Position numbers and translations under genes: made by a program
NCBI RefSeq assembly: GCF_014204945.1
Contig: NZ_JACHMN010000001.1
Span: 434,001-498,000, forward strand
Origin: Allocatelliglobosispora scoriae
GTDB lineage: Bacteria; Actinomycetota; Actinomycetes; Mycobacteriales; Micromonosporaceae
Direction of reading: 5' to 3'
Length of the DNA stretch: 64,000 nt
The notes under the pieces: model-generated
What the model saw: only the letters and a program-made list of their open reading frames with translations
The model's database searches: none
What the model was told of the DNA's origin: nothing
Shown: in pieces, positions 3,957 to 6,913 of the stretch
How the letters are laid out: every line of letters begins with the position of its first letter
Position numbering within the stretch: position 1 is the stretch's first letter

Positions 3957-4706
3957 TCAGGCTTCCGGTGGGCGGTTGTAGCTGTTCAGGGTGGCCTTGC
4001 TGGTGGAGGCGTCGTAGAAGACGAGCTCCCAGGGCCCTGTGTTGACATCCATCTCCTTGCCGAAGCCGACCCACCTACCGGCGATACGCCGACCGGTCGG
4101 CTCGGCGAGCATCTGGATCGCGCCGTGATAGCGAGCGCCGCGGTAGTAGCCCTCGGCCGCTGTCTGCTCCACCCATGTTCCGGTGACGACACTGCCGTCC
4201 ACGGTCAGGTCCATGGTCAGTGGCGAGTTCGGATTCGAGGAGCCGTTCGGCAGGGATCGGACGGTGAGCCGGTCGCCGTGCTGGAGGATCACCACATGGT
4301 GCAGGCCGGTGAAGATTCCTCCGCGTCCGCTGGACTGGTACTCGTAGCGGGACAGCCACACGCCGGAGTAGTTGCGGTGCGTGCCGGTCGAACCAGCGGT
4401 GAGAGCCGCGCCGTTGGCGACCGGCGCAACGGTCGCGTCGCCGTCGGTCAGATCCGAGCCGGGAACCGGGACGGTGAATCCCAGCGATGCGAGCGGAAGC
4501 CCGGTGACGGCCTCGAGTGCGCGAGCGTACGTCGGGCGCGGGCTGACGATCAGTCCGGCTTCCCAGCGTTGGACGAGGCGCTTGTTGGCATCGTTGGGCT
4601 GGCCGGCACTGTCGCCGACAGCCCGGATGGCTTTGGCGAAGTCGTCCTGACTCATCAGCATGCCCATACGGACAGCTCTCAGCGTCGAGTTCGGCGTCAC
4701 TGTCAT
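3957..4706 (-). CDS. XRE-type helix-turn-helix regulator with C-terminal ligand-like domain
   Basis: A ~249-residue regulator starting at ATG 4706 (MTVTPNSTLRAVRMGM; ATG 4718 is possible). Residues ~8-55 form the XRE HTH (LRAVRMGMLMSQDDFAKAIR ... NKRLVQRWEAGLIVSPRP). The C-terminal half (YSGVWLSRYEYQSSGRGG, LTVDGSVVTGTWVEQ, YHGAIQMLAEPTGRR) is a beta-rich domain typical of a widespread actinobacterial XRE family. The gene diverges from the peptide/methyltransferase pair at 4931-6151. Five phased direct repeats lie immediately upstream of its start, so autoregulation and control of the divergent pair are likely but inferred. Confidence 0.85.
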   Translation of the reverse strand: MTVTPNSTLRAVRMGMLMSQDDFAKAIRAVGDSAGQPNDANKRLVQRWEAGLIVSPRPTYARALEAVTGLPLASLGFTVPVPGSDLTDGDATVAPVANGAALTAGSTGTHRNYSGVWLSRYEYQSSGRGGIFTGLHHVVILQHGDRLTVRSLPNGSSNPNSPLTMDLTVDGSVVTGTWVEQTAAEGYYRGARYHGAIQMLAEPTGRRIAGRWVGFGKEMDVNTGPWELVFYDASTSKATLNSYNRPPEA

Positions 4707-4725
4707 GGCAATCACCATACGCTCG

Positions 4726-4779
4726 ATGTCGCCTAAATGACGCCCCTGATGACGCCGGAATGTCGCCCACAAAGACGCC
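4726..4779. promoter_or_regulatory. Array of five helically phased ATGWCGCC-type direct repeats
   Basis: ATGTCGCC (4726), ATGACGCC (4737), ATGACGCC (4749), ATGTCGCC (4760) and AAGACGCC (4772) start 11, 12, 11 and 12 bases apart, so every copy faces the same side of the helix. The array begins 20 bases upstream of the XRE start and occupies the divergent intergenic region. This is the expected position of a multi-site operator for that regulator. Confidence 0.65.
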
Positions 4780-4930
4780 GCGCCGCGGAACATCGCCGCA
4801 TAGCTTTATGTCAATGCAATGCTGGTGTCGGTCAAGGCACCCGCTGGCAAATCCTGAAGCAGGCAGCGGCACGAAGCCAGATCCGACCTGGCACATCCTC
4901 CGGTCCTACAGTGAAGGGAAACGGCGAGCG

Positions 4931-5062
4931 ATGGCCAAGCACGAAAAACCGAATGACCAGAACAATCCCAACCAGCAGGTTGACGGCGGGAAGAGCAAGG
5001 ACCAGGTCGACCCGAACAAGTGGGTGGACCCGGACGCGGGCAAGGGAAAGCGGGGTAAGTAG
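4931..5062 (+). CDS. 43-residue charged peptide, candidate RiPP precursor for the adjacent PCMT
   Basis: ATG 4931 follows AAGGG (4916-4920) and encodes a 43-residue, highly hydrophilic, Lys/Asp/Asn/Gly-rich peptide without Cys. Key parts are NDQNNPNQQVDGG (residues 8-20) and VDPNKWVDPDAGKGKRGK (26-43). Its stop codon TAG directly abuts the GTG of the methyltransferase with no gap, so the two are translationally coupled. A net-basic tail and several Asp in Asp-Gly, Asp-Pro and Asp-Ala contexts fit a substrate for isoaspartate-type methylation and aspartimide formation, as in imiditides. Precursor status is inference. The codon pattern is GC3-rich and the peptide looks real rather than leader noise. 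Confidence 0.6.
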   Translation: MAKHEKPNDQNNPNQQVDGGKSKDQVDPNKWVDPDAGKGKRGK

Positions 5063-6151
5063 GTGAGCACGCGACAGGAGCTGGCGGCCGTGCTCGGCGA
5101 CCAGCTCCCTCCAGAGTGGCGAGCGGCGTTCGATGAGGTCCCCCGGGAGTTATTCGTCCCCGACGTCGGCTGGGTGGTCGAAGACAACGGCGCGGATTCG
5201 ATCCCGGTCAACCGCGCTGTCGCCGAATCCGATTGGCTGGCCGGTGTCTACTCCGACGCGGCGTTCGTCACCCAGCACGAAGGCGGTCGAGCCACCTCGT
5301 CGAGTTCCAAACCGAGCATGGTGTTCGCCATGCTCGGTCACTGCGATCTCCGGCATGGGCAGTCCTTCCTGGAGATCGGCACCGGTACCGGCTGGAACGC
5401 CGGCCTGGTCGCCCGACGCATCGGCGACGGCAACACGACCAGCATCGAGATCGACGCCCCGGTAGCCGCGCGGGCGCGGGAGAATCTGCGCCGGGCCGGG
5501 CGCTCGCCCCTGGTGGTCACCGGTGACGGCGAGCAGGGCTACAAGCCGAACGCGCCCTATGACCGCGTCGAGGCGACCTGCTCCGTCCGCAGCGTCCCGC
5601 GGGCCTGGGTCGAGCAGACCAGACCCGGCGGATTGATCGTCGCCCCGTGGGAGACCGCCTCGGCCGGGCTGCTGCTCAAGCTCTCCGTCGACGGCAGCCG
5701 TACGGCGGCGGGGAGGTTCGTCGGTACCGCCGGGTTCATGACTCTGCGCAGCCAGGACCGGGTGATCGGTGGCGAGCCCGACGACTTCGACGAGCTCGCC
5801 ACCGTCGGCAGTACCGATCTCGACGCCCCGGAGGTGGTGTCGGGGCACGCCCGTACCGCCGTCGGCCTGCTCATCCCGGACATGCGCATGACCATGGACA
5901 TCAACGACGACACCGGCTACCTCGAGCAGTTGTGGTTCCTGGCTCCGGACGCCTGGGCTGCGGTCGACCCCTACGACGGCACGGTCCGCCAGGCGGGGAC
6001 CCGCCGGCTCTGGGACGAGGTGGTGTCGGCGCACGCGTGGTGGGCCGAGGCAGGCGAACCCGAGTACACCCGGTTCGGCGTGGCCGTCGACACCGTCACC
6101 GGCGGGCAGTGGACCTTCCTCGACGACCCTGCCCGCACCGTCCCCGTGTGA
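5063..6151 (+). CDS. PCMT-family (protein-L-isoaspartate O-methyltransferase-like) SAM methyltransferase
   Basis: A 362-residue enzyme, longer than housekeeping Pcm (~210-220). The N-terminus carries PCMT hallmarks: FDEVPRELFVPD (23-34), GGRATSSSSKPSMVFAML (74-91) corresponding to the substrate-binding loop, and SAM motif I FLEIGTGTGWNAG (102-114). The C-terminal ~140 residues (from about 220) are an extension of the kind found in RiPP-tailoring PCMT homologues. Those enzymes methylate a precursor Asp, which then cyclises to aspartimide. The start GTG directly abuts the stop of the 43-residue peptide. No lanthionine synthetase, ATP-grasp or lasso cyclase is nearby, so a two-gene (precursor plus PCMT) system is the simplest reading. 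A stray protein-repair enzyme remains the alternative. Confidence 0.85.
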   Translation: MSTRQELAAVLGDQLPPEWRAAFDEVPRELFVPDVGWVVEDNGADSIPVNRAVAESDWLAGVYSDAAFVTQHEGGRATSSSSKPSMVFAMLGHCDLRHGQSFLEIGTGTGWNAGLVARRIGDGNTTSIEIDAPVAARARENLRRAGRSPLVVTGDGEQGYKPNAPYDRVEATCSVRSVPRAWVEQTRPGGLIVAPWETASAGLLLKLSVDGSRTAAGRFVGTAGFMTLRSQDRVIGGEPDDFDELATVGSTDLDAPEVVSGHARTAVGLLIPDMRMTMDINDDTGYLEQLWFLAPDAWAAVDPYDGTVRQAGTRRLWDEVVSAHAWWAEAGEPEYTRFGVAVDTVTGGQWTFLDDPARTVPV

Positions 6152-6169
6152 ACGGTGGCGGGGCCGCCG

Positions 6170-6279
6170 GATCGGCCGCAGCACGTCGAGGCGCAATGGC
6201 GGCAACGGGTTCGACTTCGCCGATCCCGGCTCGAATTTCCTGTGGCCGGTCAACGGCCGACGCGGGCGCCCGCCTGTAA
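6170..6279 (+). pseudogene. Decayed 3' remnant of a pectate lyase-like gene
   Basis: The stretch from 6170 aligns with 413 onward of the first gene (CGCAGCACGTCG.GGCGCAA.GG, NGGNGFDFAD), then jumps to the sequence matching 648-700 (CCCGGCTCGAA.TTCCTGTGG). About 175 bases are therefore deleted and two more bases are lost near the end, destroying the frame. Even the CCCGGAAC just after the original stop is retained here. It is a duplicated or relic copy, not a functional gene. Confidence 0.75.
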
Positions 6280-6281
6280 GT

Positions 6282-6303
6282 CCAGGTGTCCCGGAACACC
6301 TGG
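6282..6303 (+). terminator. Small hairpin after the pectate lyase relic
   Basis: An 8-bp stem CCAGGTGT/ACACCTGG with loop CCCGGA. It lies where the intact gene also carries a short CCCGGA-loop hairpin, so it probably descends from the same duplication. Confidence 0.45.
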
Positions 6304-6409
6304 TGTCAGTACTGAACAGTGGGTTAAATCCACCTTATTTACATTGACGCATGCAAATTAAATGGGCGAAGGTGGGCGTATCGATTTCCAATTCACGGGA
6401 GGGAAAATC

Positions 6410-6913
6410 GTGAAGGTAAACGCACGCCGCATCGCAGGTCTCTGTGCCGCGGTCGCCGGACTCGTCCTCGTGTTCGCCGGACCGGCCGCCGCCACCGCGG
6501 ATCGAGCGGCACCGCCGTCGTCGATCCGGGTGGTCGCAACCAAGATCACTGTTGCCGGGGCCAACGGCGAGAGCCGGGTACCCCTCGTCAGCTGCTCCGG
6601 GGTGTCGATCACCCGCGGCGCCTACACCGGCGCCGTCTGCTACGGCACCAACATCCTGGACGTTCTGTGGAGCGACGGCCGCTGGCAGACGTTCGTCGTC
6701 GGGACCACCTCGTCGAACAACATCTACAACATCTGGCAGCGCTGGGCGGGCGACTCGTCCTGGAGCGGCTGGGCACCGGTCGCCGGCAACGGCACCGCCA
6801 TCAACGGCGTGTGGCTCGCGGACGACTCGCCGCTGACCATCAAGGTCGTCGGGACCGACAGCCGCTACTGCAACACCTGGAACCCGAACTGGAGCGGCTG
6901 GTACAACTGCTGA
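6410..6913 (+). CDS. Secreted tryptophan-rich protein of unknown function
   Basis: The start is taken as GTG 6410 (MKVNARRIAGLCAAVAG...) because GGGAGGG lies 7 bases upstream. This gives a 167-residue preprotein with a clear Sec signal peptide ending near PAAATA (~residues 27-32). The mature part has Trp-containing repeats (LWSDGRWQTF, IWQRWAGDSSWSGWAP, WNPNWSGWYNC) and four cysteines likely to form two disulfides. Such Trp/Gly repeats suggest a beta-sheet carbohydrate- or surface-binding protein, but no family was recognised. Confidence 0.65.
   Translation: MKVNARRIAGLCAAVAGLVLVFAGPAAATADRAAPPSSIRVVATKITVAGANGESRVPLVSCSGVSITRGAYTGAVCYGTNILDVLWSDGRWQTFVVGTTSSNNIYNIWQRWAGDSSWSGWAPVAGNGTAINGVWLADDSPLTIKVVGTDSRYCNTWNPNWSGWYNC

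Follow-up and report, generated by a model that had tools for sequence, protein, structure and literature searches.

A probable two-gene imiditide (type I pamtide) cassette in Allocatelliglobosispora scoriae

The peptide gene and its methyltransferase

The window, a 64-kb stretch of the A. scoriae genome, contains a short open reading frame (orf) followed directly by the gene of a protein L-aspartyl O-methyltransferase (PAMT), with a helix-turn-helix (HTH) regulator gene transcribed divergently on the other side of an intergenic region. The coordinates of these features are given in Table 1.

Table 1. Features of the locus, in window coordinates.
Feature	Position	Strand	Remarks
Divergent HTH regulator gene (XRE/NsdA-like, weak matches)	3957..4706	-	adjacent gene; does not belong to the conserved cassette
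Five phased direct repeats, GGCG[AT]CAT	4725..4779	units on -	spaced 11-12 nt; a single unit is mismatched; precede the HTH gene
Precursor peptide gene, 43 aa	4931..5062	+	ATG start; TAG adjoins the next gene; relatives have comparable peptides in this position
Asp18 codon (VDGGK)	4982..4984	+	candidate, most likely aspartimide site; sole Asp-Gly of the peptide
PAMT gene, 362 aa	5063..6151	+	GTG start; WAEAGEP near the C-terminus

The first-pass annotation described a Lys/Asp/Asn-rich peptide of 43 residues whose stop codon abuts the GTG of a PCMT-family enzyme of 362 residues, and this description is confirmed: the peptide, MAKHEKPNDQNNPNQQVDGGKSKDQVDPNKWVDPDAGKGKRGK, runs from the ATG at 4931 to the TAG at 5060-5062, the GTG at 5063 follows directly, and the enzyme matches PF01135 (2.7e-27). 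The peptide contains 8 Lys, 6 Asp, 5 Asn, 5 Gly, 4 Pro and no Cys, its calculated pI is 9.16, and the GC content of its codon positions (0.63/0.33/0.84) is coding-like. In size and composition it resembles an imiditide precursor (about 45 aa, linear, Cys-free, rich in Gly, Pro, Asp and Lys), with Gly and Pro under the published averages. Translation could alternatively start at an in-frame ATG at 4760, 4808 or 4814, but 4931 is favoured because the sole ATG or GTG start of the corresponding orf at locus L011 of another genome is placed exactly at the sequence MAKH. A promoter scan of positions 4600-6450 found none.

Among named profile models, the PAMT is matched best by TIGR04188, the ATP-grasp peptide maturase system methyltransferase (4.6e-88), and the PHROG family phrog_13505, annotated as methyltransferase, covers nearly its full length (9.8e-97, residues 4-361). 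Its calculated pI is 4.58, opposite in charge to the peptide, with acidic stretches at approximately residues 236-246 and 278-284, the second of which is near a predicted hairpin turn. The WXXXGXP motif of RiPP-type PAMTs is present as WAEAGEP. The exact motif is found in 48 of 57 aligned PAMT rows, graspetide-type rows among them, and is therefore a mark of RiPP PAMTs in general and not of one class; it is absent from the closest paralogue of the enzyme (L010) and from locus L070. Passages of PMC13001092 likewise record the motif from lasso-peptide, graspetide and imiditide enzymes. The AlphaFold2 model built from a nine-row alignment (pLDDT 77, pTM 0.73; pLDDT 53-67 for the four others) predicts a C-terminal domain beyond the methyltransferase core, and its best PDB match by Foldseek is 1dl5, the PIMT of T. 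maritima (TM 0.56-0.58 over 350-361 columns), a structure said in part of PMC13001092 to share features of the PAMT C-terminal extension. The enzyme thus combines homology to PIMT, a predicted extra C-terminal domain and WXXXGXP, as imiditide enzymes do.

Recurrence of the gene pair and phylogeny of the enzyme

Relatives of the enzyme were sought in genomes of the same family (354), order (397) and class (394), with five candidates scored per genome, and in a set of named genomes, for whose contigs an alignment was used as the query, the single protein having given no match. The nearest PAMT relatives are approximately 39-50% identical (the best 44-50%), with no characterised enzyme among those compared. 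Ahead of many of them there is a small orf, rich in Lys, Gly and Asp, whose end is close to the PAMT start, and at L070, L011, L013, L238, L241 and other loci this peptide begins with M[AG]KH at the same place. The peptide of L011 (genome G015) is MAKHDTTGDGHKKGIDPSRITKPKDDRGKHSGGDQGGKGGKK; that of L013 (genome G303) begins with MGKHGQDSDGNKPGGYDPNKIVDPGKTGGGGKHSGG, and that of L070, from a Pseudonocardiales metagenome-assembled genome (MAG) with a PAMT 47% identical, begins with MGKHESKSAVDGQGELDPAKTKDAQ.

The first-pass annotation proposed counting peptide-PAMT pairs in other genomes, and the count is in its favour. With a peptide signature defined as a start codon followed by [AGS]K[HRK], a length of 30-70 aa and less than 18% hydrophobic residues, the sole match on either strand of the window is the peptide described here, and 19 of 92 PAMT loci have a matching peptide where the PAMT begins. 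Outside that position, the 1.57 Mb of strand sequence from these loci gave two matches, for an expectation of 0.0003 per locus. Because the signature was defined post hoc from peptides already seen, and the 19 contain two pairs of identical peptides (L049/L051 and L056/L059), this is an enrichment over a measured background and not a blind test. Among the remaining 73 loci are ones of graspetide type, identified through an ATP-grasp pattern, and others whose peptides do not fit the signature, such as that of the paralogue in the same genome. The signature missed the MAKH-like peptide of L017, which has a TTG start, and L012, where the peptide frame lacks a start over most of its length, was scored as a miss. 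A short precursor gene directly beside a PAMT gene is thus conserved in kind, as pairs in other genomes. By comparison with the peptides beside the PAMTs of relatives, and with a second cassette in the host genome, the 43-residue orf appears to be a real gene.

That second cassette (L010/L069, C1:51466-52503) consists of a 372-aa PAMT and a Gly/Lys/Asp-rich peptide of 57 aa that overlaps the PAMT start and lacks the MxKH beginning; another HTH gene is found downstream. The host genome has 12 matches to PF01135, of which four were typed: the PAMT of the window, its paralogue, L001 and L004, with no plain Pcm among these four. L004 (C1:91462-92001) and L001 (C2:4592640-4593236) score as FxLD-system methyltransferases, and L004 is followed by what we read as an FxLD-like Cys-containing peptide.

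Given the PF01135 domain and the Foldseek matches to repair PIMTs, the enzyme might be an ordinary protein-repair PIMT beside which the small orf arose by chance. This is improbable: against TIGR00080, the model of the canonical repair PIMT, the enzyme scores 84.2 bits where the cut-off is 159.05, it carries the predicted additional C-terminal domain with WXXXGXP, and peptides abut the PAMTs of its relatives far above the background rate.

A tree was inferred from 112 PAMT loci, all retained. Not in this set were L065, L105-L149 and L239, the viral loci except L241, and, among the 35 loci L070-L104, 15 that are partial or distant. With locus types assigned by pattern rules and not by curated annotation, a branch with 98% SH-aLRT support splits the tree in two: on one side are 40 rows, of which 28 are ATP-grasp-linked and 12 unassigned, and on the other 72 rows, which comprise all 53 type I loci, all four type II loci, 13 unassigned and two ATP-grasp-linked. 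The PAMT of the window belongs to the latter, pamtide side, which excludes 28 of the 30 ATP-grasp-linked (graspetide-type) enzymes. Within it, the enzyme falls in a clade of eight rows (97%), six labelled type I and two unassigned (one of them L017), in which its companions are the paralogue of the host itself (L010), four loci of the same family (L011, L012, L013, L017), the Pseudonocardiales MAG (L070) and a metagenome contig (L241). The pair of a PAMT and an M[AG]KH peptide at L241 is on a contig from a viral collection, but it was not counted as a phage locus because its flanks look chromosomal, with what we take to be an HTH gene accompanied by a DUF397-like small gene, and pilus-secretion-like genes.

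The tree also bears on a second alternative, that the enzyme once tailored a graspetide or lanthipeptide whose primary enzyme was lost or is encoded elsewhere, the peptide being a leftover. Although TIGR04188 is the best named model, the PAMT scores below its cut-off (296 versus 380 bits), as do relatives that stand beside short linear peptides (L010 276, L011 330, phage L321 325); the enzyme is on the pamtide side of the tree, and no ATP-grasp or lanthionine gene was recognised among the neighbours examined, all of which makes a graspetide or lanthipeptide origin highly improbable. More broadly, scanning or reading the genes between 1.2 and 11.4 kb of the window revealed no recognisable primary enzyme of another RiPP class, in keeping with the earlier remark that the locus has no other RiPP enzyme.

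The locus is therefore very probably a two-gene imiditide (type I pamtide) cassette, a reading that rests chiefly on the gene pair and the tree. The two-gene imiditide layout proposed in the first-pass annotation is upheld by the peptide-PAMT pairs in other genomes and by the class features of the enzyme.

The HTH neighbour and mobile copies of the cassette

The HTH gene starts at 4706 (or 4793) and shares an intergenic region of 224 nt (4707-4930) with the cassette. It has matches in 107 of the 354 family genomes, many of them near full length at 57-76% identity. In 23 other genomes with matches to both the HTH protein and the PAMT (E ≤ 1e-30 for the PAMT), no pair was found within 200 kb on one contig, the distances being compared by hand with five PAMT candidates scored per genome and with split assemblies hiding some distances; the nearest pair outside the host, in genome G074, is approximately 225 kb apart. 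Among the 20 best HTH loci, a PAMT gene stands divergently beside the HTH gene in the window and at none of the 19 others, whereas all 20, the window's own included, have at least two repeats like GGCG[AT]CAT just before the HTH gene (one mismatch allowed), mostly in steps of 11-12 nt. The exact paired repeat pattern occurs in the host genome at this site only (three overlapping matches; none with a reversed control), a search in which the exact pattern was scored and weaker sites are possible. The phased repeats are probably the operator of the HTH gene, which is itself probably a conserved, self-regulating gene. Since its orthologues are common, the 19 others inspected have no PAMT beside them and the repeats go with the HTH gene, it appears to stand here by chance, although it may influence the cassette by way of the intergenic region common to both. 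The XRE gene that was originally counted as part of the locus is thus present and divergent but is not a conserved component of the cassette.

With a home-made HTH model, matches within 3 kb were about equally frequent at loci of the type I set, chosen by ourselves (11 of 31), and at other PAMT loci (9 of 28); these counts are low, since HTH genes seen by eye in the window and at L066 and L067 escaped the model. A quorum- or lysogeny-like module of three genes, in which the HTH protein responds to the modified peptide and regulates the cassette, would suit the divergent layout with its shared intergenic region, the frequency of HTH genes near PAMT loci and the HTH gene near the phage cassettes, but is most improbable given the wide distribution of the HTH gene apart from PAMT genes, the adjacency seen in the window alone among the 20 best HTH loci and the association of the repeat operator with the HTH gene.

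On the other side of the cassette, after the PAMT gene, positions 6170-6256 consist of two pieces that are 93% and 94% identical to positions 415-468 and 646-678. Judged by this identity, the segment is a shortened, decayed copy of the 3′ part of the orf at 152-703, and it hints at rearrangement beside the cassette.

Related cassettes are also carried by phages. Eight records of five Streptomyces phages of the genus Austintatiousvirus (Bioscum, Ididsumtinwong, PapayaSalad, Austintatious and Alderaan) hold a PAMT that is 39-42% identical. The peptide before it is MSGKHGGGSGSGSGGSQQDDSSSGRQHGGGGSETSGGNSSDGSGPAK or nearly so, as read from the records of four phages themselves and, for the fifth, from viral contig L244, which matches the Ididsumtinwong record in length and match position. 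In Bioscum, Alderaan, Austintatious and PapayaSalad (L321-L324), the cassette is situated between an HTH regulator and an endolysin and is annotated as a hypothetical protein and an (O-)methyltransferase; the four PAMTs group with Streptomyces type I enzymes in the tree. An integrase is annotated in the Bioscum and PapayaSalad stretches and not in those of Austintatious and Alderaan; in passages of PMC7650747, Alderaan is described as lacking an integrase and as possibly having become lytic. A ninth phage match, in Saccharomonospora phage PIS 136, covers 33% of the query. The scan of the viral collection kept 80 loci, and peptides were examined at 56 of them.

Plasmids carry such cassettes as well. 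Pseudonocardia plasmid pLS2-1 (L238) has an unannotated MAKH-type peptide, MAKHDEKADQDSQKADEKEGTENSGGDPDGPEGRHRK, just before an annotated methyltransferase gene. Of 77 plasmid records with a PAMT match, three were examined: in H8 and H1 the PAMT is preceded by a short peptide, and in H18, whose record is 11.85 Mb long, by an ATP-grasp-like end. The words phage and plasmid are absent from the main texts of PMC10787088 and PMC13001092, and a search of open-access papers found none whose title concerns phage-borne PAMT/aspartimide cassettes, which does not prove that there are none.

What imiditides do is described as an open question in PMC13001092. The phage- and plasmid-borne copies are what suggests a role in mobile-element conflicts. 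It is conceivable, but on balance unlikely, that the cassettes are mobile accessory genes of phages, plasmids and chromosomes, that the aspartimide peptide serves conflict between phage or plasmid and host (by lysogenic conversion, superinfection exclusion or killing of competitors) instead of being a classical secreted antibiotic, and that the window holds a captured copy whose neighbours are an HTH gene unrelated to it and a partial, decayed duplicate of a nearby gene. With the phage-borne copies, the role of the peptide could be probed cheaply by genetics in S. venezuelae and its phages.

Predicted modification and comparison with known systems

In published relatives, an Asp of a linear peptide is methylated by a PAMT, and ring closure of the ester yields an aspartimide (PMC10787088, sections 2.3 and 2.5; parts of PMC13001092), and recognition depends on charge and on C-terminal residues, according to portions of the same two papers. 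By analogy, a basic, Cys-free linear peptide would be made on the ribosome and bound by the acidic PAMT, probably through its basic C-terminal tail, AGKGKRGK; the enzyme would methylate one Asp side chain, most likely that of Asp18 in VDGGK, and the backbone NH of Gly19 would displace methanol to form an aspartimide, which might either persist or hydrolyse to isoAsp/Asp. The pI values of peptide and enzyme (9.2 and 4.6) fit the charge-based recognition reported for imiditides in passages of PMC13001092. Basic charge is not a shared trait of the peptides compared: by K+R-D-E, 14 of 24 are negative, two are zero and eight, including that of the window, are positive.

Asp residues in the contexts VDGG, VDPN and VDPDAG had been put forward as candidate sites. 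Aspartimide formation needs the backbone NH of the next residue, and proline has none. Asp27 (VDPN) and Asp33 (the first Asp of VDPDAG), each followed by Pro, are therefore excluded, while Asp18 (VDGG) and Asp35 of that proposal stay in contention. Asp18 may be regarded as the best candidate, with modest support, and Asp9, Asp24 and Asp35 as possible sites. Asp-Gly occurs within the first 20 residues of 17 of 24 hand-picked peptides, that of the window included, whereas shuffled sets have a mean of 10 of 24 and a maximum of 17 in 2,000 sets; the support is only modest because the shuffled average is already that high. The L241 peptide has no Asp-Gly in its first half. Counterparts of both Asp18-Gly19 and Asp27-Pro28 are present in L070, L011 and L013.

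The locus was initially presented as an undescribed system, but it looks like a member of a class that has already been published (PMC10787088, PMC13001092), with approximately 1,414 type I members reported in the latter. The published datasets comprise 1,183 precursors and 1,539 PAMTs. It provides a testable imiditide in addition to the two type I examples described as expressed in passages of PMC13001092, and the host carries another cassette besides.

Cysimiditides (type II pamtides) likewise pair a precursor with a PAMT, but they are defined by two CXXCXGXG motifs, which the peptide of the window, having no Cys, does not contain, and the type II loci of our set (L079, L224, L231, L235) are outside the clade of its PAMT. 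The graspetide PAMTs (TIGR04188) are homologous enzymes with the same core and motif, but no ATP-grasp gene was recognised beside the enzyme of the window, which scores below the cut-off of their model. The FxLD-system methyltransferases (TIGR04364) have the PCMT core in common with it, with a score of 115.9 bits for the PAMT versus a cut-off of 320. The closest likeness, drawn from descriptions in parts of PMC13001092 and PMC10787088, is to the imiditides, or type I pamtides, represented by NmaA-NmaM of Nonomuraea maritima and SpaA-SpaM of Streptomyces sparsogenes. The peptide of the window departs from the type I average composition given in PMC10787088 (Gly 17.3%, Pro 16.8%) in having more Asn/Gln and less Gly and Pro (5 and 4 of 43 residues), but it shares with imiditides the two-gene unit of precursor and PAMT, the linear Cys-free precursor of about 45 aa, the lack of a cyclase, the pairing of a basic peptide with an acidic enzyme, and a PAMT with an extra C-terminal domain, here predicted, and WXXXGXP.
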